Positions 14,790 to 56,581 of a stretch of DNA of 64,000 nucleotides are shown one piece after another. The position numbers and the translations under genes were made by a program. The stretch's first letter is position 1, and the number at the start of each line of letters is the position of its first letter. The notes under the pieces were generated by a model. It was given only the letters and a program-made list of their open reading frames with translations. It was not told where the DNA came from and did not search any database. This stretch comes from Oscillospiraceae bacterium (GTDB lineage Bacteria > Bacillota > Clostridia > Oscillospirales > Oscillospiraceae), in the NCBI GenBank assembly GCA_017405865.1, contig JAFQZN010000008.1, forward strand, positions 17,539 through 81,538, written 5' to 3'.

Positions 14790-14875
14790 GCGACAGTCCA
14801 CCGGACTGTCGCCAAGAGCCGCCTTTCAAGTCCATTAGTAGTCAGAACCAAAAATGAAGAGGTCACGAATGTGAC
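14790..14875. repeat. 86-base direct repeat, copy 1 (truncated element)
   Basis: Matches 14930-15015 with two differences. It holds a 10-base-arm hairpin (GCGACAGTCC / GGACTGTCGC), a copy of the tRNA-Val 3' sequence (AGTCCATTAGT) and half of the tRNA terminator stem. The left closing arm seen in the neighbouring copy is missing, so it is a cut-down copy. Confidence 0.85.
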
Positions 14876-14892: not shown

Positions 14893-14976
14893 AATGGACT
14901 CGCTTTTCTGCGGAAAAGCCACGGCGGTTGCGACAGTCCACCGGACTGTCGCCAAGAGCCGCCTTTCGAGTCCATT
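14893..14976 (-). repeat. Folded repeat (copy E1) with tRNA-Val-matching closing stem
   Basis: Closing arms AATGGACTCG (14893-14902) and CGAGTCCATT (14967-14976) equal the T-arm/acceptor sequence of the adjacent tRNA-Val. Inside are CTTTTC-TGCG-GAAAAG and a perfect 10-base-arm hairpin at 14930-14952, itself enclosed by GGCGG/CCGCC. Read on the - strand it follows the tRNA and its terminator, the same order as for the copies at 43498 and 46672. Confidence 0.75.
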
Positions 14977-15015
14977 AGTAGTCGGAACCAAAAATGAAGA
15001 GGTCACGAATGTGAC
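14930..15015. repeat. 86-base direct repeat, copy 2
   Basis: Second copy, offset by 140 bases from the first. Its right part pairs with the tRNA-Val gene itself: 14965-14979 is the exact reverse complement of 15035-15049. The segment 14965-15049 is therefore one large imperfect palindrome that includes the tRNA 3' end and terminator. Confidence 0.85.
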
Positions 15016-15026
15016 CTCTTCATTTT
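14990..15026 (-). terminator. Terminator of tRNA-Val
   Basis: On the - strand, directly after CCA, arms AAAATGAAGAGGTCAC and GTGACCTCTTCATTTT flank ATTC. The stem can extend into the tRNA CCA end. Confidence 0.9.
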
Positions 15027-15103
15027 TGGTGGAGACTAATGGACTCGAACCATCGACCTCCTGCGTGTGAAGCAGGCGCTCTAACCAGCTGAGCTAAGCC
15101 TCC
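15027..15103 (-). tRNA. tRNA-Val (anticodon CAC)
   Basis: Reverse-strand cloverleaf of 77 bases with CCA encoded. The acceptor stem GGAGGCT pairs with AGTCTCC (one G-T), the D arm is GCTC-AGCTGGTTA-GAGC, the T-loop is TTCGAGT. The anticodon stem CCTGC/GCAGG encloses TTCACAC, giving anticodon CAC, which reads valine GTG codons. Confidence 0.95.
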
Positions 15104-43087: not shown

Positions 43088-43440
43088 GGGGGCGCACCGG
43101 TTTCGACGGGGGCAGTGAGGCTTGAATAGCGGGTCGTGGCGCCTGACCACGATAAAACGGGTAACTTTTTCTAAATTAACTGACAACAATCAGTTCGCTC
43201 TGGCTGCCTAATTAGGCCGGCCCATCCGCCCCGAAAGGTCCACGAGTCGGGCTCGGGTGTCATTTGAGTGGAGAACGTGCGTGCGGTAAGCTTTGCCCGT
43301 ACCATGCACCTATGAAGCTACTGAATCCGGCAGAGTGTCTGCTCCCGGCCGGATGAGGGAATGTAAATAACAGACTGCACCCGGAGAAGTTCCTGTCAAG
43401 CTGTTTTCGGACGGGAGTTCGACTCTCCCCGCCTCCACCA
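43088..43440 (+). ncRNA. ssrA: tmRNA (SsrA)
   Basis: The 353-base RNA rescues stalled ribosomes and adds a degradation tag. The 5' end GGGGGCG pairs with CGCCTCC before ACCA. The 5' tRNA-like part has the usual GCACCGGTTTCGACGGGGGC, and the 3' part ends GTTCGACTCTCCCCGCCTCC-ACCA. The tag frame reads ...DNNQFALAA and stops at TAA (43213-43215). The exact resume codon is uncertain because the usual GCN alanine codon is not obvious upstream of AAATTAACTGAC. Confidence 0.95.
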
Positions 43441-43441
43441 T

Positions 43442-43482
43442 GCAAAAGAGAGGACACGCCAACGGCGCGTCCTCTCTTTTGC
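43442..43482 (+). terminator. Terminator of tmRNA
   Basis: Long stem with arms beginning GCAAAAGAGAGGAC and ending GTCCTCTCTTTTGC around a small loop. Confidence 0.9.
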
Positions 43483-43497
43483 ATCTTCGGAAACGAA

Positions 43498-43620
43498 GGG
43501 GGATCGAAAGCTCAAATCGGAACAGCGCGGTGCGCTGTTCCTGCAACCAGTCCGGAGACTGGTTGCTGCCTTTGTTTTTTGCCAGCGGCAAAAAACGCAA
43601 ACGATCCCCCTAAGGTCCAC
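43498..43620 (+). repeat. Cloverleaf-like folded repeat after tmRNA (copy E2)
   Basis: Closing arms GGGGGATCG (43498-43506) and CGATCCCCC (43602-43610) enclose three perfect hairpins: GGAACAGCGC/GCGCTGTTCC (43519-43541), GCAACCAGTC/GACTGGTTGC (43543-43566) and GTTTTTTGCC/GGCAAAAAAC (43574-43596). The right arm continues TAAGGTCCACCA, like the 3' end of a tRNA. No coding frame is credible. Confidence 0.75.
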
Positions 43621-43686
43621 CACGAGAGAATAATCCGACTAGAAAAATGAAATTATGATCTTTTTGTGAATAATGGTCCCACCCTC

Positions 43687-43728: not shown

Positions 43729-43755
43729 TTAGCACTCTCATGACCAGAGTGCTAA
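43729..43755 (+). promoter_or_regulatory. Perfect CIRCE element (HrcA operator)
   Basis: TTAGCACTC, nine bases, GAGTGCTAA: an exact match to the HrcA operator, placed between the promoter and the clpB ribosome site. It implies heat-shock control by HrcA. Confidence 0.95.
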
Positions 43756-43792
43756 AAGCGAATAGAGTCCTTGCTCGGAAAGGAGAATACAG

Positions 43793-46387
43793 ATGAACGC
43801 AAACAAGTATACGAAGAAATCTCTGGAGGCGATCCAGAGCGCACATCAGATCGCGGTTGATGAAAGCAATCAACAGATCGAACAGGTCCACCTGCTTGCC
43901 GCGCTGTTGCGGCAGGAGAACGGCCTCATTCCGCAATTGCTCAAAAAGATGGAACTCACACCGGAGAGTCTCGACGCTGCCGCGGAGCAGCAGATTTCCA
44001 AACTGCCGAAGGTTACCGGGTCCGGTCGGGAGGTGGATCGTTATTATATCTCCGACTCGGTCGATCAGGTCTTTGCGCACGCCGAGCAGGCTGCGCAGTC
44101 TATGAAAGATGAATATGTGTCGGTGGAACACCTGTTCCTTGCCCTGGTCGACCGACCGGACGACACGCTGAGAGATCTTTTCCGCACCTACCGAATCCAG
44201 AAAGAAAGCGTTATGAAAGCGCTGGTGGAGATTCGGGGAAACCAGCGGGTCACCTCCGACAACCCCGAAGATACTTATGAGGCCTTGGAGAAGTTCGGGA
44301 CTGATCTGGTCAAGCGGGCCAGGGAGAAGAAGCTGGACCCGGTGATCGGCAGAGACGAGGAGATCAGGAACGTGATCCGGATCTTGTCGAGAAAGACCAA
44401 GAACAATCCCGTTCTGATCGGTGAACCTGGCGTCGGCAAGACCGCGATCGCGGAGGGTCTGGCCCAGCGGATCGTAAAGAAAGACGTTCCGAAAAGCCTG
44501 CAGGACAAGAGCATCTTCTCTCTGGATATGGGCGCGCTGATTGCCGGCGCGAAATACCGCGGCGAATTTGAAGAACGCCTGAAGGCGGTCCTGACCGAAG
44601 TCAAAAAGAGCGAAGGCAGGATCATCCTGTTTATCGATGAACTGCATACGATCGTCGGCGCGGGCAAAACCGAGGGCTCGATGGACGCCGGCAACCTGCT
44701 CAAGCCGATGCTGGCGCGGGGCGAACTGCACTGCATCGGCGCTACGACACTTGACGAATACCGTCAGTATATCGAAAAGGATCCGGCGCTGGAACGGCGG
44801 TTCCAGACGGTCCTGGTCAATGAACCGACCGTAGAGGATACGATCGCCATTCTGCGCGGCCTGGAAGAGCGCTATGAGGTGTTCCACGGCGTGAAGATCA
44901 CCGATCCGGCAATCATTGCAGCCGCAAAACTGTCCGACCGCTATATCACCGACCGCTTCCTGCCGGATAAGGCAATCGACCTGATCGACGAGGCTTGCGC
45001 GCTGATCCGTACAGAGATGGACTCCATGCCGACGGAGCTTGATATGGTACAGCGGAAGATCATCCAGATGGAGATCGAGGAAGCCGCGCTGAAGAACGAG
45101 GAGGACGACCTCTCAAAGAGCCGTCTCGCCGAGCTGCAAAAAGATCTCGCGGAAAACCGGGATAAGTTCAACGCGATGAAGGCCAAGTGGGAAAACGAGA
45201 AGAACGCCATCGGCAAGATCCGACAGCTCAGAGAACAGATCGAACGGCTGAACGCGGAGATCGAGCAGGCGGAGCAGACCTACGATCTGGAAAAAGCAGC
45301 AAAGCTGAAATACGGCGATCTGCCGGAAGCCAAACGTCAGCTCGAAGAAGAGGAGCGTCTTGCGCAGAACGCAAAGGAACAGAGCATGCTGCGCAACAAG
45401 GTGACCGAAGAGGAGATCGCAAAGATCGTCGAGCGCTGGACCGGCATCCCCGTGGCAAAGCTGGTGGAGGGAGAGCGGGAGAAGCTTCTGCACCTGGACG
45501 AACACCTGCACAAGCGGGTCGTCGGGCAGGACGAGGCGGTCAAAAGCGTCTCCGAAGCCATTCTGCGCAGCCGCGCAGGCATCCAAGACCCCAATCGCCC
45601 GATCGGTTCCTTCCTCTTCCTGGGTCCCACGGGCGTAGGCAAAACGGAACTGGCCAAGACCCTTGCCGCAGAACTCTTTGACGACGAAAAAAATCTGGTC
45701 AGGATCGACATGTCCGAGTACATGGAGAAGTTTTCCGTGTCCCGACTGATCGGCGCGCCTCCCGGCTACGTCGGCTACGAGGAGGGAGGCCAACTGACCG
45801 AAGCCGTCCGCAGACGGCCCTACTGCGTCGTCCTGTTCGACGAGATCGAAAAAGCGCACCCGGACGTGTTCAACATTCTTCTGCAGGTTCTGGACGACGG
45901 GCGGATCACGGACTCCCAGGGCCGGACCGTAGACTTTAAGAATACGATCATCATTCTGACGTCCAACCTCGGCTCATCCTATCTGCTCGACGGGATCGAC
46001 GCCGACGGCAATATCACCGAGGCGGCAAAAGCCAAGGTCGAGGCGCTGCTGAAAACCAATTTCCGCCCGGAGTTCCTGAACCGGCTGGATGAGATCGTAT
46101 TCTACAAGCCGCTGACAAAAGAGAACGTACGCGGGATCATCGACCTGCAGATCAAGGCGCTGAATCTGCGGCTGGCGGAGAAGCAGCTTCACTGCACGCT
46201 GACGCAGGCGGCCAAGGACGCGATCATTGATGCAGCCTTTGACCCGCAGTTCGGCGCGCGTCCGCTCCGCCGCTATGTACAGCATACGGTCGAAACGATG
46301 CTGGCCCGCCGGATCCTGCAAGGCAGTCTCACCGCCGGGCAGGAACTGACGGTCGACGCGGTGAACGGAACGCTGGTCATCCGCTGA
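43793..46387 (+). CDS. clpB: ClpB disaggregase
   Basis: 864-residue Hsp100 chaperone that extracts polypeptides from aggregates with DnaK. It has a Clp N-domain (about 1-145), the first AAA+ module with Walker A GEPGVGKT and Walker [10 protein letters not shown], a middle coiled coil (about 405-525, [18 protein letters not shown]), and a second AAA+ module with [16 protein letters not shown] and [15 protein letters not shown]. The C-terminus is typical. AAAGGAG precedes ATG 43793. The middle coiled coil separates ClpB from ClpC. Regulation by HrcA is indicated by the CIRCE element. Confidence 0.97.
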
Positions 46388-46551: not shown

Positions 46552-46600
46552 CTGGTTCCTTCGGGGGTTCGAATCCATCTGTCAAACACACAAATCCATC
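46552..46600 (+). repeat. T-arm-like fragment and repeated tail
   Basis: GGGGGTTCGAATCC (about 46563-46576) resembles a tRNA T-loop but has no matching cloverleaf. The following CAAATCCATCTTTTCC recurs near 47031-47046, and both copies are followed by short hairpins. It looks like a tRNA-derived remnant. Confidence 0.45.
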
Positions 46601-46618
46601 TTTTCCGTACCCCATAGA

Positions 46619-46651
46619 CAAAAAACACCATCCTTTCGGATGGTGTTTTTT
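46619..46651 (+). terminator. Terminator-like hairpin before E3
   Basis: Arms AAAACACCATCC / GGATGGTGTTTT with a TTTC loop and trailing T. Confidence 0.8.
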
Positions 46652-46669
46652 GGTGGAGATGAAGAAAGG

Positions 46670-46780
46670 GAGAGTCGAAAAACTAAATCGCGGATCTCCG
46701 TTGGAGAGCCGCTTCGACCAGTGCAAACACTGGTCGATCCATTAGTTCGCGCAGCGGACGCAAACGACTCTCCCCGCCTC
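46670..46780 (+). repeat. Folded repeat copy E3 with tmRNA-matching right end
   Basis: Closing arms GGGAGAGTCG and CGACTCTCCC enclose a hairpin CGACCAGTG/CACTGGTCG and two weaker ones. The right arm plus flank, CGACTCTCCCCGCCTC, equals 16 bases of the tmRNA 3' end located 3.3 kb upstream. Layout matches E2. Confidence 0.7.
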
Positions 46781-46994: not shown

Positions 46995-47104
46995 AAATGC
47001 CTAGAAAGTCCGAAGCTCTTGTGTAGAACCGCAAATCCATCTTTTCCCAACCCCAAGACACAAAAGAACCTCTTTTGTCCGCAAAGGCAAGAGAAGTTTC
47101 TTGA

Positions 47105-49294: not shown

Positions 49295-52200
49295 TCAAGC
49301 GTATTTTTTGCGTCTGCGCAGCATGATGGCGGCGAGCGTTAGCAGATAAGCTCCGATCGTGTAGTATACCCACACGCCGACGCCGCCGGTAGCAGGCAGC
49401 TCAACGCCGGAGGCGTTGCGTACCGTCATCAGATAACCTGTATTGAGGTTTCCGGTGGTCGTGCCGACACTGTGATTCGGATCGGAAGTGGTCCATGTTC
49501 CCTGCAGCGTGGCGCCTGTGGAATCGATCGTCAGCAGCAGTCGACCGGGCAGCGGCTGATATGCCGTAGGCGGCGTTACCTCTTCGATATAGTAGCTTCC
49601 CGGTAAGAGGTCGCCTTCAAAGAAGATGCCGTTGCCGCTGTCGGTGATGTTGGACTGGACGACGCCGTTCACGGTAAGGAGCGTGGTTCCGTCACTCTCG
49701 TAGATGTTGAAGACCGCGCCGGTGACCGGGTATTCACGCAAAGGCGTTTGGGTATTCTCATAGCCGACCTTTTGCAGCGTGATGTGCGTCTTCTTCTTTA
49801 CGTTTGGCACGGCGAGCGTATAGACAACCGTATCGCCCTCCTGGTTGACGTACTTCGTAAGCCAGTTCTCACGGCCTTCCGAGAGGACCGTCACGCTGCC
49901 CTTTTCGCCGACGGAGAAGCGAAGATAACCGCCCATCGTTTCATAGCCGGGAAGCGGCGTTTTTTCCACAAGGTAATAGATACCGTGCGAAAGATTCTCA
50001 TTCAGCCCCGGAATGACGCCGTTGGCGTCGGTCACAAGATTGTCGCAGCCGGGAAGCGGCGTGAAGTCGATGCCGGTGACGCCGTTGACCGTGACCTCGC
50101 GGTGCAGCGAGAACGCAACGCCCTGCAGCGGCTCGTGCGTGTCGCCGTCGCGCTTTTCAAAGCGGAGCGTGAAGTTCCTGTTCTTGATCGTCAGCTCGGG
50201 CATATTGTTCGCGCCGTTCTGATTGAGAACGTAGTAATCCGTGATGTCCGCGGGCGCATCCGGATCGGGCGTTACCGCCAGCGAATAGACGCCGTTGCTC
50301 TCGGTCAGACGCAGCGTCAGCGGGTATTCGATGCCGTAGTAGCTCACCGGAGCGCGGACCTCGTTCAGAACGTAGTCCACGTTTTCACCCAGCATCGCTT
50401 CTGTGATCAAGCCGGTTTCGTCCGAAACGAACGGACCGAGCGTGGTATTGCCGAGCGACAGAGTGAATTCCGCGTTTGCCATCGGCTGACCGTCCCAGTC
50501 GACCTTGTACAGCATGACGCCGGGACGGCTGTTGACGATGGTGTCTACGCGGACGTTGGAGCCTGTCTCGATCTCGCCCTGCTGGTAGTCGACGGTATAG
50601 GTGAAGTCAGCGGGCGTGTTGAAGCCAACTTGCGTGCCTTCCAGCGTCGTATCGTCGCCGTCGTCCACGACGGTCTGCGTACTGTAGCTCGTCACGATAC
50701 CGTTCGAGTCGACGACCGGATTGGTCAGCTCGACTTCACGGACGTGATACTGATCGAAGGTCGTGCCGGCCGCAAGCGACGGGATGTACCAGTACATCGT
50801 ATGCTCGCCGTAATCCAGTCTGCGGACCGTGGAGGTCTGCACAATGATCTGGTTCCCCTGCCCGTCGTCCTCTGTCGTTTCGATCACGAACGGAGTCTGA
50901 CTGTTGCCGAGGAAGACTGCCACATAGATCGGGTCGCGGTCGTCCATATACGCCGCGTCGTTCCAGACCTTGTTGACGCGCAGGCCCCAGCCCTTGAGGT
51001 TGTTGACCTCGACGATCGGGTCGTCTACCGAGCCGTCCGAGGGAATGAAATCCTGCGGCATCGATGCGGAGGTCGTACCGGGGTCGTTCTCGCCGAATTT
51101 GAGGGTGTAGTCGCGCAGCGAGTAGCCGTCCGGGATCTCGTAGTCACGTTCCTGCACGCGGAACTCGGTGCCTGCGAGGATCTCGCGGATCTCCACGTCG
51201 TAGTCGACGGGGATCTTGGAGATCGAGCCGTTCATCGAGGTGTAGAAGGTGGCGCGTTGCTTGTCGGCGTCCGACAGATTGCGGTAATCCGTCTCGTTCA
51301 GCGAGACGAAGGATTGCGTCGGCACATCCCAGTAGCAGTAGTTGCCGTGGTTGTCCTTGACGTGGTACGGGAAGAGACTTGCGCCGGAGAAGCTCGAATC
51401 GTTCTCCGTCTTGAAGTACAGACGGAAGTTGAAGATCGCGGAATCCGCGCCGAAGATCGGATCGTCGTGGTGGATCTCGGTCACGCCGTCCTCCGCAAAC
51501 AGCCGCTTGCGGATCGTCAGATTGCGCAGCGCGTCGTCGTCGACGTGGTTGGTGTAAACGACGCGCGGACGGTTTGCAGCCGTCTCATACTCAAGCGCGT
51601 AGTCGTAGCGGTGGTCATTGTTCGGATCCGCCTGAATCTCGTTCAGCACCTCGTTATCGTTCGAGGTATCGACGGTAACGTCCTCGAAAATGCGCGTATC
51701 GACGCCGCACTCCACGATCTTGTAGGAGATCGTGTCGTCCGGGAACTTGATCTCTGCGATTTCGCCCGGCTTCAGGAGGAACACGTCCTGATATGTGATG
51801 CCGTCGATCGTCTTGGTTGCCGCGTAAGGAACGGGCGTGGTGGTATCCTTATAATACACGTGCGTGTTCGGGTCGTTGGCGGTCAGCCGTGAATACATCG
51901 GATCGCCCGTGTTCGGGTCGATCATCGGCGTGCCGTATCCGTCGCCCGGCACGTACCAGATCTGGTACGGGAACGTAGCGTCGATCGAAGCGGCGGAGTC
52001 GATGTCACCGCCGAGTTCCTTGCTCAGCTGCACGGTACCTGCCTTGACGGAAGCAAGATTGAAGCGCATATGCAGGTTGGACGCGCCGGCGCCGCGCTCC
52101 ATATAGAAGATCTTCATTTCGTGCGAGGTGTAGTCCTTGAAGACCATATGTCCCATGCCGTCGCTCTCGAAGATGCCGCTCAGATAGGCGTCGACGTCCG

Positions 52201-55200
52201 CAGCGGGCGGCTCGGCGCCGTCGTTCGCCGCTTTGTAGCGGTCAACGTAGTTCTTGCGGAAGGTCTCGTAGAGCGTCGTATGGACGCCGTTGACATAGAC
52301 GTCGCCGGTGCAGAAGTTGACCGTTCCCGCCAGCGCGCTGTGGATGCCGCCGAGGTCGATGACCAGCTTGCCGTCAACGTAGAGCCAGAAGTCGTCGTCG
52401 CCGGTGAATTCGTAGATGATGTCGTGTCCCCAGCTGTCGTGTCCGCTGGGCGTCTGGACGAAGCTCGCCTCAAGCTCCATGCCGAAGTAGTAGTCGGGCC
52501 GTTCAACACTGTACAGGCGCTCGTTCTTTCTCGGATCGCCGTCGAGCAGCTCCTCCTGCGTGGCGGTATAGAGGTTTCTCGGGTTGTAGACGGTGCAGAA
52601 GTTGCCCGGCTCGATATTGTCGTACGGGAAGAACTGACCGTGCTTCAACGAAGGTCTGCTGCTGCCGCCGTCGTAGCTGCCGAGCTCCTGATAGACGAGG
52701 AAGTTGGTGCCGTAGGTGCCGTCCTGCCGTTTCAGCGTGGCGAAGTTCTGCGTGCTGTCGTACTCGAAGTAACCGGAGCCGTCCAGAATACTCTGCAGGA
52801 AGAGGTGGTTGACCTCGATCGGCGGATTGTTCGGAGAATTGAACAGGTCCGCCAGCGAAGTTTGGGTGATCGTCGCGGTCGGGTAGCCGTTGGCGTCCAG
52901 ACTGTTCGTGAGCAGGTCGGAATTTGGGTAAAGGACCGCGCCGCCGGTGCTATCGCCGATCACATTGTGCTGCTGCAGTGTAGTTTCTGGGTTTTTCCCG
53001 TCCTTGTAGGTCGTGCCGCCGAAGTCTACCATCTTCATCGTGATGCCGTAGAGATTGTTGTCGACAGTCGGAACCTCGGTCAGAACGTCATCCGTCGGCA
53101 GGTTATGCACCAGTGCGAAGTAGAAGTCGGTCGTCTCATTGATCGCGCAGGGCGCGATGCTGTCGCCGCTGCCGCTGATATTTGCATGCACGCCGGCGTA
53201 GGCGTAGCTCGGGTCGTCCCAGGCAAGAATATCGGAGTAGTAATAGCCGTTCTTTCTGCCGTTCAGGTTGATGCCGATCTTGTTATCCGACAAAATTTGG
53301 TTGGAGCTGAGCTGCGGCGCGATGTACTTGCCGGAAAATTCGTTGTACAGTTCATAGTAGCCGTTCGGGCCGGAACCGTCTTCCCACTGGTATTCGGTGA
53401 AGTCCCAGAGAAGCGTGTTGAAGCGGTCGCCGAACCACTGGATCTGGTCGCCGCTCTCGTAGACGGGGATCAGCGAGCCGTCGCTGTCCACGGCATAGAA
53501 GTTGTAGCGCTTGTTCTGCGCGTCCCAGACACGGGCGTAGACGATGACTTTCGAACCGTCCGGCACGGCCTCGCGGTCGGAGATGCTGACCTTATCCGCT
53601 GTGTGGACCATATAGTAGTCCGGCGTCAGGTCGGTCTCGTCCACCAGCCGCATCCATTCGCTGCCGACGGTACCGCCGACAAAGAAGCCGACGTTGGTCG
53701 CGCCGCTGTAGGTCAGGACGGCGTTGGAAGCGCTGCGCAGGAAGATCTGACCTTCGTGACCCGCTCCGCCTTCGACGATCTCAATATTGCAGCCGGCGTC
53801 GATATCGTTTGCGTCGACGAGGGTTACGCCGTCGTTGGTATCAATGCGGAGATACTTCGTCTCTCCGTTGACCTGAGTAGTGATGCGGTAGATATCACTT
53901 TCGACGTTATGGAAGGTCCAGCGGGAGATGCCGCTGTCCTTCGGCGTAAAGATGATGTCTTCGCGGTCGTTGTTTCTGGCGAGCACGGTCATCGAGACCG
54001 CTTCCAATGCGCCCTCAACGCTCTCATTCGCCATCATCGCCTTGCCGGTCAGACCGTTGTTGAAGAACATAAGACCGTAGGTTTTGCCGTCCAGATCATA
54101 AGGATCGTCCGTCGGCGGCGTGAAGTACCAGAAGTTGAAGCGGGCGTTCACGTCGTTCAGATTGTTATACGCCGCAAAGCAGTGGCCGCTCGTACCGCCC
54201 TGCATATTCCAGCAGAAGTCGTTTGCGCCGCGGATGCGGAAGACGTTCGTATCCTCGCCGTTGCCGAAGTCCTCGATCGTGAAAACGCTGCCGCTGCTTG
54301 CGCTGTCGACAAAGTTCAGACTGTTGCTCGACTGCTGTACGTACTTTCGGTTTGCGCCGTTCATACAGTAGATTTTGTACTGATGGTTCGCAGCATCGAC
54401 CGTTTCGAAGAAGTAAGGCACCGCGCCCGACATGGGCTGCCCGATCTGCGCAGGCTCGGTTTTCGTGATGCCGTTTCGGCTGCTGTTGACTCTGGTCACG
54501 CCGCTCGTGGCATAGTAGCCGTCCACGTGACCGATGTAGATGCCGTCGCCGTTTTGGATATGGCTCTCCAGATCGGACATGGAGGTAAGCATATCCCAGC
54601 CGCCGGTTTCCTCGATGGTGGGCGCGTTGACGATCACGTAGGCGGAGAAGCCGGTCGCGGTGAAGCTGACGCTCTCCCCTTCGATCTGCACGCCGGTGAC
54701 GACCTCGCCCTGCTCTGCGCCGTCGGCGATATGGACAACCTTGCTGTTCTGATTCAGCGTCCGCGCAGACGCATCCCCTTCCAGTTCGATCCGAACGTCG
54801 ACCGGCGCAGTGATCTCAACATTGTTCCCGTCCGCGTCAACGATCTTGATATCGAACAGGCGGATATTCTCTCCGCTGCCGCTGCGCATACCGAGCGCGG
54901 TTTCGCTCTTGGCGACCAGATTATCATAGTTTTCGGCGCCGTCGGTGAGTTCGGTCACAGTGAGCTCCGCGTCTTCCGGCACACCGGCGTCGCTGCCGTA
55001 GGTCACGATGACGCGGTAGGCGCTGCCGTCGCTTGCGAGCACGCTCTGCTCGATTGTTGAGCCGACGATACCGTATACGGAGAAGCCCTCCGTTTCAAAA
55101 CGGATCTCGCCGTCAACGGTCTCGCTGTCTATGATCTCCGGCTCCTCGCCGAAGTGGACGATCTGCGTATCTTCCTGCGGAACGGTGTTCTCGGGCCGGA

Positions 55201-56581
55201 TGGTCACGTTTACAGGCCGCTGCGGCTGGACTTCCACGCCGTCAGAGAGGATCGTGATATCGAGCAGACGAAGCTCGTTTACCTTTTCCTCGTCACAGTT
55301 GAGTGCAGCAGCTGTCTGTGCAAGATAGGCTGCATATTCTTCTGCCGTCGGCTCACTGATTGCAAGTGTCGCGTTTTCGGGAATCTCCGCCTTCGCGTTA
55401 AATTCTACGGTGACCGCATATACCGTCCCATCCTCCGCCGTATAGCGCTCGGTCAGCGTATAACGCGGCTCCTCCGGGAGGATGCCGTAGCCCATGATAC
55501 GCGGGTCGCACATCCGATAGGATACGACCTGTACACAGTTGTCGGAGTTTCCTTCGATCGTGGTTAGGGTTCCTTCCGTCCCGTCAACGGAGCGGACGAT
55601 GCCTACGTGACTTGCGCCGGATCTGCCTTCCGCACGGAAGAAGATCAAATCTCCCGCCTTGGGTAAATAGGCGTCCTCCGGCAAAGTATCGGGATCATCC
55701 CAGTGCTCGGGGATGCAGCGATAGCGTTCGATTGCTGCCAGGCGTTCGATCCATTGATCGACGCCCGCCTCGCGCGGCATTGCCGTTTCGGGGATCTCTG
55801 CATAGGACAGGCAGAAAGAGATGAACATTGCGCACCAGTCGCCGTAAGCGTCGCCGTACCAGTCACCGTAGCGGGTGTAGCCCTTCTTGACGCCATCGAC
55901 CAGCTCAAAGTTGTGCTCGCTTTCGCGGTAACCGAGCTGCATTTTCGCAACGGCGAGGAGATCCTCGTCCCATTTGCCGGAAAGCGTCAGCGCGTCGATC
56001 ATTTGCTCCCAGAGCGCGGGGAACTCCATGTCGGCATTCGGGTCGCTGACGAAGGCTTCACCCGTCGCTTCGCTCTCCGCCTCCCCTTCCGTAGCGGCTT
56101 GCGTGAAGCACTCTGACGTGTGGACGTGTACGGGCAGCTCCTGCAGCGGACAGGTCAGAATCTGCGTTTCTGTGTAGCATTCTTCGGTATGTACGTGTCC
56201 CTCGAAGCCCTCCTCCGTTTCGCAAGTCAGCTCCTGCACCGTCTCGAAGCAGGCGGCATCATGCGTGTGCGGCTCGATCTGCGGCAGCGTACAAAGGAGG
56301 TTGCCCGCGGCGTCGTAGCACGTTTCATCGTGCATATGTGCCGTCGCGTAAGCGCACTGATACAAGCCGTCATCGGTAAAGCACTCGTCGCTGTGCTCAT
56401 GCTGCGCATAGGGGCAGCAGAACGTTTCTGCCTTTGTCATGGTCACGCCGGTCAGCATGATCATGGCGAGCGTGCCGGAGGATACCAGCGTCGCAAAGCA
56501 GAGAAGCACGGCGATCAAGCGGCGATGCAGCTTGGACTCGCGCAAGAATATTCTGATTTTTTTCAGAATCGTTTCTTTCAA
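49295..56581 (-). CDS. Giant LPXTG adhesin with CHAP, fibro-slime and Cna-B domains (probable pilus tip)
   Basis: 2428-residue surface protein. A signal segment ends near 50. Five H-x-H-x(4)-C-[FY] repeats cover about 58-165 (HEHSDECF, HMHDETCY, HTHDAACF, HVHTEECY, HVHTSECF). A CHAP-type amidase domain lies at about 215-375 (GDWCAMFISFC with Cys; SHVGIVRS with His). Next come two VTVEF-type beta repeats, a large middle region and a fibro-slime/PA14-like domain near 1340-1530 (GDDDFWLYVDGKLVIDLGGIH). Cna-B/SpaA-type domains fill about 1860-2350. LPATG near 2395, a hydrophobic helix and RRRKKYA form the sortase signal. It is the last gene of the pilus operon. Confidence 0.92.
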   Translation of the reverse strand: MKETILKKIRIFLRESKLHRRLIAVLLCFATLVSSGTLAMIMLTGVTMTKAETFCCPYAQHEHSDECFTDDGLYQCAYATAHMHDETCYDAAGNLLCTLPQIEPHTHDAACFETVQELTCETEEGFEGHVHTEECYTETQILTCPLQELPVHVHTSECFTQAATEGEAESEATGEAFVSDPNADMEFPALWEQMIDALTLSGKWDEDLLAVAKMQLGYRESEHNFELVDGVKKGYTRYGDWYGDAYGDWCAMFISFCLSYAEIPETAMPREAGVDQWIERLAAIERYRCIPEHWDDPDTLPEDAYLPKAGDLIFFRAEGRSGASHVGIVRSVDGTEGTLTTIEGNSDNCVQVVSYRMCDPRIMGYGILPEEPRYTLTERYTAEDGTVYAVTVEFNAKAEIPENATLAISEPTAEEYAAYLAQTAAALNCDEEKVNELRLLDITILSDGVEVQPQRPVNVTIRPENTVPQEDTQIVHFGEEPEIIDSETVDGEIRFETEGFSVYGIVGSTIEQSVLASDGSAYRVIVTYGSDAGVPEDAELTVTELTDGAENYDNLVAKSETALGMRSGSGENIRLFDIKIVDADGNNVEITAPVDVRIELEGDASARTLNQNSKVVHIADGAEQGEVVTGVQIEGESVSFTATGFSAYVIVNAPTIEETGGWDMLTSMSDLESHIQNGDGIYIGHVDGYYATSGVTRVNSSRNGITKTEPAQIGQPMSGAVPYFFETVDAANHQYKIYCMNGANRKYVQQSSNSLNFVDSASSGSVFTIEDFGNGEDTNVFRIRGANDFCWNMQGGTSGHCFAAYNNLNDVNARFNFWYFTPPTDDPYDLDGKTYGLMFFNNGLTGKAMMANESVEGALEAVSMTVLARNNDREDIIFTPKDSGISRWTFHNVESDIYRITTQVNGETKYLRIDTNDGVTLVDANDIDAGCNIEIVEGGAGHEGQIFLRSASNAVLTYSGATNVGFFVGGTVGSEWMRLVDETDLTPDYYMVHTADKVSISDREAVPDGSKVIVYARVWDAQNKRYNFYAVDSDGSLIPVYESGDQIQWFGDRFNTLLWDFTEYQWEDGSGPNGYYELYNEFSGKYIAPQLSSNQILSDNKIGINLNGRKNGYYYSDILAWDDPSYAYAGVHANISGSGDSIAPCAINETTDFYFALVHNLPTDDVLTEVPTVDNNLYGITMKMVDFGGTTYKDGKNPETTLQQHNVIGDSTGGAVLYPNSDLLTNSLDANGYPTATITQTSLADLFNSPNNPPIEVNHLFLQSILDGSGYFEYDSTQNFATLKRQDGTYGTNFLVYQELGSYDGGSSRPSLKHGQFFPYDNIEPGNFCTVYNPRNLYTATQEELLDGDPRKNERLYSVERPDYYFGMELEASFVQTPSGHDSWGHDIIYEFTGDDDFWLYVDGKLVIDLGGIHSALAGTVNFCTGDVYVNGVHTTLYETFRKNYVDRYKAANDGAEPPAADVDAYLSGIFESDGMGHMVFKDYTSHEMKIFYMERGAGASNLHMRFNLASVKAGTVQLSKELGGDIDSAASIDATFPYQIWYVPGDGYGTPMIDPNTGDPMYSRLTANDPNTHVYYKDTTTPVPYAATKTIDGITYQDVFLLKPGEIAEIKFPDDTISYKIVECGVDTRIFEDVTVDTSNDNEVLNEIQADPNNDHRYDYALEYETAANRPRVVYTNHVDDDALRNLTIRKRLFAEDGVTEIHHDDPIFGADSAIFNFRLYFKTENDSSFSGASLFPYHVKDNHGNYCYWDVPTQSFVSLNETDYRNLSDADKQRATFYTSMNGSISKIPVDYDVEIREILAGTEFRVQERDYEIPDGYSLRDYTLKFGENDPGTTSASMPQDFIPSDGSVDDPIVEVNNLKGWGLRVNKVWNDAAYMDDRDPIYVAVFLGNSQTPFVIETTEDDGQGNQIIVQTSTVRRLDYGEHTMYWYIPSLAAGTTFDQYHVREVELTNPVVDSNGIVTSYSTQTVVDDGDDTTLEGTQVGFNTPADFTYTVDYQQGEIETGSNVRVDTIVNSRPGVMLYKVDWDGQPMANAEFTLSLGNTTLGPFVSDETGLITEAMLGENVDYVLNEVRAPVSYYGIEYPLTLRLTESNGVYSLAVTPDPDAPADITDYYVLNQNGANNMPELTIKNRNFTLRFEKRDGDTHEPLQGVAFSLHREVTVNGVTGIDFTPLPGCDNLVTDANGVIPGLNENLSHGIYYLVEKTPLPGYETMGGYLRFSVGEKGSVTVLSEGRENWLTKYVNQEGDTVVYTLAVPNVKKKTHITLQKVGYENTQTPLREYPVTGAVFNIYESDGTTLLTVNGVVQSNITDSGNGIFFEGDLLPGSYYIEEVTPPTAYQPLPGRLLLTIDSTGATLQGTWTTSDPNHSVGTTTGNLNTGYLMTVRNASGVELPATGGVGVWVYYTIGAYLLTLAAIMLRRRKKYA

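Follow-up and report, generated by a model that had tools for sequence, protein, structure and literature searches.

Behind tRNA and tmRNA genes of many gut Oscillospirales bacteria lies a family of small mobile elements, ∼100-170 bp (∼0.1-0.2 kb) in size and usually without genes, whose ends copy the 3' end of an RNA gene. The layout can be written A - T - A' - C - A, where A is the tRNA or tmRNA 3' end, T a terminator that is often present, A' an antisense copy of A, C a hairpin core and the final A a second, sense copy. Comparison of filled and empty orthologous sites establishes that the unit is inserted between an intact tRNA, directly behind CCA, and the old spacer, with the last 21 nt of the tRNA repeated. 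A sequence-only reading of the DNA considered here had proposed mobile repeats with ends tailored to RNA genes, and the filled and empty sites, the further copies and the matching of the arms all support this proposal.

The window, a stretch of 64,000 nucleotides, belongs to a 2.08-Mb, 83-contig MAG of an Oscillospiraceae bacterium (G000) and contains three such sites, E1 (14893-14976(-)), E2 (43498-43620) and E3 (46670-46780), whose parts are listed in Table 1. All three are present as T - A' - C - A, and their folds are far more stable than those of dinucleotide shuffles (z of -8.64, -6.07 and -4.24, with no shuffle reaching them). The one shared layout claimed earlier for these sites is borne out. 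E1 is located behind tRNA-Val(CAC). E2 follows the tmRNA gene, yet its arms are those of a tRNA-Ala (GTTCGATCCCCCTAAGGTCCACCA), and a tRNA-Ala-type flank (CGAGAAGATAATCCGA; at E2 CGAGAGAATAATCCGA) continues 3' of its right arm; the E2-type terminator is also found on contig C43, behind a truncated tRNA-Ala and a serine recombinase gene. E3, ∼3.2 kb behind the tmRNA gene and preceded by clpB and a remnant resembling a tRNA 3' end, is the site that carries tmRNA arms. The claim that the arms copy RNA-gene ends holds at all three sites, but at E2 the gene copied is not the neighbouring one. In a relative, G011 (L138), the end of clpB likewise lies upstream of an element, there with Lys arms.

Table 1. 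Positions of the three elements, their parts and the adjoining genes in the window.
Feature	Position	Strand	Basis
tRNA-Val(CAC) in front of E1	15027..15103	-	
E1 terminator T	14991..15026	-	
E1 antisense arm A' (CTAATGGACTCGA), antisense tRNA-Val T-arm	14966..14978	-	
E1 core C, type Ib (AAGGCGGCTCTTG...AACCGCCGTGGCTTTTCCGCAGAAAAG)	14903..14965	-	
E1 distal sense arm A (CGAGTCCATT), truncated tRNA-Val 3' end	14893..14902	-	
Second, truncated tandem copy behind E1 (part of T, A', part of core)	14790..14875	-	
tmRNA gene (ssrA); 3' end CGACTCTCCCCGCCTCCACCA is the A copied in E3	43088..43440	+	ARAGORN, Rfam RF00023
E2 terminator T (TGCAAAAGAGAGGAC...TTTTGCA)	43441..43483	+	
E2 antisense arm A' (GGGGGATCGA), complementary to tRNA-Ala T-arm	43498..43507	+	
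E2 core C, type Ia, hairpins 43519-43541, 43543-43566, 43574-43596	43519..43596	+	folds
E2 distal sense arm A (CGATCCCCCTAAGGTCCACCA), tRNA-Ala position 56 to CCA, then tRNA-Ala-type flank	43602..43622	+	
clpB, between tmRNA/E2 and E3	43793..46387	+	
E3 terminator T	46620..46651	+	sequence
E3 antisense arm A': boxes GGTGGAG (outer) and GGGAGAGTCGAA (inner, antisense tmRNA 3' end) around a mismatched spacer	46652..46679	+	
E3 core C, type Ia, hairpins 46690-46712, 46714-46737, 46745-46759	46690..46759	+	folds
E3 distal sense arm A (CGACTCTCCCCGCCTC), tmRNA 3' end, stops before CACCA	46765..46780	+	

Several other features of the window were recorded. A Gut-1 RNA (RF01706, 46813-46888) lies directly behind E3; at L256, one Gut-1 follows each copy of a duplicated tRNA-Asn end and terminator (580-652 and 1550-1622). 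In two genomes, elements with tmRNA arms have a box like CGCAAATCCATCTTTTCCGTACCCCATAGAC immediately ahead of their terminator (∼46585-46619 and ∼47025-47065 of the window, ∼220-250 and ∼1895-1925 of L127). Before clpB, at ∼43731-43757, there is an inverted repeat (TTAGCACTC...GAGTGCTAA) that we take to be CIRCE-like, and on the minus strand positions 49295-56581 hold a 2428-aa ORF, surface-protein-like and with an LPATGG-like C-terminal end.

The question of whether few or no further copies exist is readily answered, as many were found. A BLAST search of the three elements against their own genome returned 39 matches at E ≤ 10, of which the strong ones represent additional copies and several follow tRNA genes, and a covariance model, R1, built from an alignment of seven copies (A1), gave 11 places in the same genome at E < 0.01. 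When the tRNA 3' ends of G000 and the 330 nt behind each were read by eye, the layout was seen at Val, Gly, Phe, Trp, Ser, Tyr, Met, Leu, Thr and Arg tRNAs, other tRNAs being without it. The cores fall into three types of one common design: type Ia, with three hairpins, its left arm often followed by TAAAT and its right arm often preceded by GCAAA; type Ib, GAAAGGCGGC...AACCGCCGTGG followed by a hairpin; and type II. The last is a second element family (CTTGACGAGAAGCAYGGTTCGAACAC...GTGTCACGGAGG), framed in much the same way at Thr, Leu and Ala tRNAs (loci L001, L069, L061 (C43 ∼12470-12345) and L402).

Among 60 genomes, 11 contain R1 matches under strict filters, the source genome included. 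Four genomes of the same genus, G001, G003, G007 and G011, have at least ten copies each, and no match was obtained in G008, G012, G014 and G016 (93-96% complete); the presence of the family is patchy. A test for framed elements, which took in 16 of the 37 tRNAs of G003, 14 of 38 in G010 and 14 of 36 in G012, found none behind the tRNAs tested in G010 and G012. The type Ib pattern was located in 67 contig stretches, all from Oscillospirales, in a collection of 84,980 species genomes. The bearers include Agathobaculum desmolans ATCC 43058 (three tandem units), Butyricicoccus pullicaecorum DSM 23266, A. butyriciproducens DSM 100391, Pseudoflavonifractor MSJ-30 and MAGs. Allowing ≤1 mismatch, the pattern is found in 17 of 394 genomes of the order, with none for a backward control pattern among the matches listed. 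Type Ib units lie up to 90 nt behind Phe, Tyr, Ser, Gln, Arg, Pro, Val, Leu, Lys and Asp tRNAs, and two further units match Asn and Trp tRNAs at a distance.

In order to establish how closely the arms follow the adjacent gene we compared them with all tRNA and tmRNA ends of a genome. In G000 the gene's own 3' end ranks first for the antisense arm at 9 and for the sense arm at 10 of 46 genes (a set that includes the tmRNA and one tRNA-Arg with an odd ARAGORN end), while by our estimate about one each would be expected by chance. The sequence-only reading had called for a covariance search followed by inspection of what lies upstream: 61 R1 matches were read with their flanks (60 from relatives, 1 from the source genome), and in the 29 that have a tRNA or tmRNA gene ≤60 nt upstream and were scored (mostly type Ia, four type Ib; the other 32 were left unscored) the own antisense end is strictly best in 25 and the own sense end in 24. 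For type Ib, 62 of 87 distinct contexts, a few of them near-duplicates, have a tRNA ≤90 nt away and were scored. The sense arm scores 17.96 of 21 against the own end and 6.85 against other ends, exceeding the 95th percentile of the other ends in 57/62, and the antisense arm 9.63 and 7.45 of 12, exceeding it in only 30/62. The 25 contexts without a tRNA within 90 nt, which were left unscored, comprise tandem copies, contig edges, cargo cases and some in which no tRNA was seen at all. The distal arm is complete to CCA with ≤1 mismatch in 41 of the 62, and its longest match begins at tRNA position 56 in 52 cases, 57 in 9 and 58 in 1. Arms no closer to tRNA 3' ends than shuffled controls would have spoken against the sequence-only reading; measured against other tRNA ends, the fit to the adjacent tRNA is far better.

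Within a single genome, G119, nearly the same core occurs at four tRNAs (Arg, Gln, Lys and Phe), in each case with arms specific to that tRNA: the cores differ by 1-5 of 46 bases, and those at tRNA-Arg, -Lys and -Phe by only 1-2. The relatedness of cores is modest: of 2000 label shuffles, 96 were as extreme as the value within a genome and 8 as that for a shared tRNA. The arms are foreign in E2 and L237, which match another tRNA than the preceding one, and at L238 the distal arm is that of the local tRNA and A' is foreign; these three look like intermediates or rearrangements. In two side observations, a tRNA-Gln gene of G119 (L296) does not encode CCA, its distal arm stopping at the corresponding point, and tRNAs for Ala, Glu and Lys (L025, L018 and L074) are followed by a similar flank (ATAATCCGAACTT...), with a small ORF (MERKIK...) behind Ala and Lys; this flank is perhaps the end of another mobile element.

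Insertion is seen in the tRNA-Arg/His spacer, which measures 26 nt in G227 (CCA followed by AACTTCCGCTGGCGAAACAGAATATG) and 142 nt in G195, where a G227-like spacer follows the distal CCA; the difference amounts to 116 extra bases with a 21-nt repeat. Of 18 species, 8 have a filled Gln/Lys spacer, and in G349, G361, G144, G105, G184 and G132 this spacer measures only 4-14 nt. The tRNA-Phe/Gly spacer contains an element in G000, G001 and G003 but none in G012. The tRNA-Glu site, empty in G000 and filled in G003, is the weakest pair because its flank recurs behind several tRNAs. In these events the tRNA is regenerated, the displaced 3' fragment from position 56/57 becomes the direct repeat, the inner arm carries this tRNA end as its reverse complement, and units can be tandem. 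Distances from tRNA to core are bimodal for type Ib, 17-32 and 53-70 nt, the short form, as read, being without terminator and within tRNA operons. A terminator had been described as part of the layout; it is often present but optional, and missing in the copies read inside tRNA operons.

The stems themselves behave as palindromic DNA. RNA under selection usually passes through G:U pairs when a stem changes, and copying between the arms of an inverted repeat need not. In A1, 23 of 31 pairs show two-sided changes with three G:U cells. A larger alignment, A3, consists of 60 of 79 distinct type Ib sequences collected with a relaxed core pattern; 94.8% of its cells pair, compared with 83.3% after shuffling, a percentage that is somewhat flattering because near-duplicates and several gapped or decayed copies were left out by eye. 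Two-sided changes occur at 17 of 31 pairs (11.5 shuffled), with a covariation score of 0.311 (0.108 shuffled, 0/500), and in hairpin 1 of type Ib 585 of 600 cells are Watson-Crick, 6 G:T and 9 mismatched. Such two-sided changes with hardly any G:U are as expected of DNA palindromes. Of the two earlier alternatives, a non-coding element or a mobile repeat, the second is the one supported.

The explanation that we prefer, with moderate confidence as to mechanism and about an even chance of holding as a whole, is a non-autonomous element that would enter tRNA and tmRNA genes at the T-loop by way of a recombinase acting in trans, for which CcrB-like enzymes are the candidate, and whose arms would then be re-tailored by template switching. 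The insertions and the matching of the arms are established by the comparisons above; we infer the enzyme and the tailoring. The recombinase would recognise the conserved T-loop (GTTCRA) and join the end of the core to C56, duplicating the tRNA 3' end as in tRNA-targeting islands. After insertion, the tRNA end and A' would form one inverted repeat and A' and the distal A a second, and a polymerase switching templates between such arms would copy the selected tRNA sequence outwards, A' being tailored by the tRNA end and the distal A by A', until the inserted copy mirrors its host tRNA. Operon copies without terminator would presumably result from selection removing it there. That template switching homogenises inverted-repeat arms is described in the portion of PMC8604942 drawn on here. 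Several findings count against this explanation. The repeat sometimes runs past CCA into the flank, by a few nt or as far as a whole terminator (8 nt in G291; 26-30 nt in L132, L235 and L282, partly tandem copies), which would not be expected from fixed-point site-specific recombination alone. In addition, serine recombinase counts do not follow element load (see below), the antisense arm of type Ib stands out in only 30 of 62 cases, some arms are foreign, 25 of the 87 type Ib contexts lack a nearby tRNA, and the relatedness of cores is modest.

CcrB/DsiB-like serine recombinases are candidate helpers on circumstantial grounds. On C43 a serine recombinase gene, with CcrB as best model (151 bits, far below the cut-off of 900), abuts a copy of E2; the gene ends in GTTCGGATC-N-CCACCA and the terminator of the E2 copy follows immediately. 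Among the loci scanned, seven recombinase gene ends (one a remnant) carry a T-loop-to-CCA look-alike and a stem, and in 2 of the 7 an element follows; the tRNAs at whose 3' ends these genes apparently lie are different ones. The seven ends, at L061 (C43), L138, L391, L392, L394, L396 and L400, run straight into a hairpin. Matches to the serine recombinase model PF07508 do not track element load, with 11 in G010, 3 in G014 and 27 in G361, where no elements or hardly any were found; element-free G012 has zero. Tyrosine and serine recombinase genes occur near some tRNAs or elements, only beside the units, and units with a close tRNA encode no integrase because they are too short for an integrase gene.

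A broader possibility, which we put forward tentatively and regard as rather unlikely, is tRNA-anchored, integron-like gene capture, with single-stranded DNA hairpins as sites, arms rewritten to the host tRNA after each jump and occasional passenger genes. Its specific form, in which A'-C-A is an attC-like site recombining as folded single-stranded DNA, the tRNA 3' end takes the role of attI and cargo lies in front, is unlikely. The attC site, in the sections of PMC2727003 used here, consists of an R box, an unpaired central spacer, an L box and a variable terminal structure, and the present elements resemble it as imperfect palindromes; copies with a terminator also seem, to the eye, to have its paired inner and outer boxes, unpaired spacer and branched top. 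In such copies A' reads by eye as two boxes, outer and inner, set apart by mismatched bases beneath the branched top, and the near-perfect Watson-Crick stems are also in keeping. As in integron cassettes, there are arrays and an occasional ORF in front: in a few elements same-strand ORFs lie between the tRNA or a neighbouring element and the site, namely a 204 aa ORF behind tRNA-Val (L155), a 165 aa ORF behind tRNA-Asn (L256), small ORFs behind tRNA-Trp (L284), 23S-IVP and GNAT proteins (L153), and, at L127:792-1715, a TIR-domain protein (PADLOC TIR-TM, 2.4e-70) between two tmRNA-armed elements, the second interrupted. The ORFs of L155 and L256 have no Pfam or PADLOC match. All of these may be cassette cargo or later insertions. 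If capture of this kind were true, one mobile core could colonise any tRNA gene, and passengers (TIR defence protein, GNAT, small membrane proteins) would be carried behind essential tRNA genes. However, the boxes of attC follow the consensus GTTRRRY/RYYYAAC and those found here are copies of tRNA ends that vary with the tRNA, without a conserved GTT/AAC recombination box and with a tRNA gene as target. In addition, units near a tRNA have no room for an ORF, and the outer box is weak or missing in operon copies. A survey of 12 genomes with the general tyrosine recombinase model PF00589 revealed no element-specific enzyme and brought no integron integrase to light, the proteins common to element-rich genomes being Xer-like and present in element-free ones as well, in a comparison where two sequences were read in the wrong frame.

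It is distinctly improbable that the elements are scars or attachment-site leftovers of ordinary prophages, ICEs or islands using these tRNA genes. The recombinase genes near some of the same tRNAs or elements would fit such an origin, as would known islands that insert mid T-loop of tmRNA and leave a 20-bp repeat (excerpt of PMC3146451), but unrelated remnants would not be expected to share a conserved core with inverted arms at ten or more tRNA species across many genera, and one type Ib query retrieved nothing from 50,697 phage and 72,556 plasmid records. The type Ib pattern was found in one viral contig, near-identical around tRNA-Ser to Butyricicoccus pullicaecorum L269, and one exact Ia probe and one type II probe had no match among viral contigs. 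On these searches a phage or plasmid origin was rejected.

A functional structured RNA or tRNA 3'-trailer, kept by selection for processing, attenuation or as a CCA-ended decoy, is very improbable. The conserved branched structure with covariation and the distal arm often intact to CCA could be understood in this way; against it, the elements are missing at orthologous tRNAs of relatives, often lie behind a terminator-like hairpin, and show hardly any G:U pairs. Rfam 15 has no family over them, only the neighbouring genes matching at gathering score; E2-E3 have no match up to E 1, and L235 weak ones only, far below gathering score. Retro-insertion, in which an RNA ending in the core would be reverse transcribed at a T-loop nick and A' made by snap-back copying, would account for a right junction fixed at position 56/57 with a variable left junction and repeat length, but is hardly likely at all given the near lack of G:U in the stems and of any PF00078 match in the draft genomes of element-rich G000, G001, G003, G007 and G011 or element-bearing G264 and G227; a resident reverse transcriptase was rejected as agent on the five element-rich drafts. 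A Y1/HUH transposase was also rejected as a general agent, being absent from element-bearing G001, G007, G011, G195, G264 and G227; one is present in G003, G344 and G367 and weak in G000 and G255.

Each ingredient of the preferred explanation, tRNA-gene insertion, small palindromic repeats and arm homogenisation, is already known. MITEs and REP/REPIN sequences are small, non-coding, palindromic, multicopy and presumably mobilised in trans, and the elements described here are alike in all of these respects; they differ in having a fixed tRNA target, a repeat of at least 21 nt and arms that change with each target, and, relative to REP/REPIN, in the absence of a Y1 transposase from several element-bearing genomes. 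Closest in their mode of insertion are islands of the Islander class, in particular those at ssrA of Dehalococcoides, which, from the parts of PMC3146451 and PMC4383910 relied on, share a tRNA or tmRNA target, insertion mid T-loop, a regenerated target, a direct 3'-end repeat (20 bp in Dehalococcoides, with the CcrB-like DsiB), tandem arrays and a repeat embedded in a serine recombinase gene, in PMC3146451 a DsiB homologue. In contrast, the units here are ∼0.1-0.2 kb, lack an integrase, occur as one family on many tRNAs and have an inverted copy of the target end framing a conserved hairpin core. Quasi-palindrome correction by template switching likewise homogenises inverted-repeat arms (PMC8604942, in part), but is known as a mutational process; here it would provide a mobile element with ends that match its target.

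The earlier statement that no described class is known to have this design agrees with our search of the open-access literature, which found no description of such elements (subscription papers and preprints lay outside its scope). We know of no class in which a mobile core has inverted and direct ends re-made from each target, and for this reason regard the family as categorically new, though each ingredient is known.

In the usual mobile elements fixed ends seek matching targets, while in this family it is the ends that fit each target. This points to a route by which a parasite could switch targets and still keep its recombination site. The family is also a natural system for testing inverted-repeat template switching and adds a layer to the long-known role of tRNA genes as hot spots of integration. 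With many copies located at contig ends, the elements may help explain contig breaks behind tRNA genes in these MAGs; they may also reveal gene cassettes in gut Oscillospirales.
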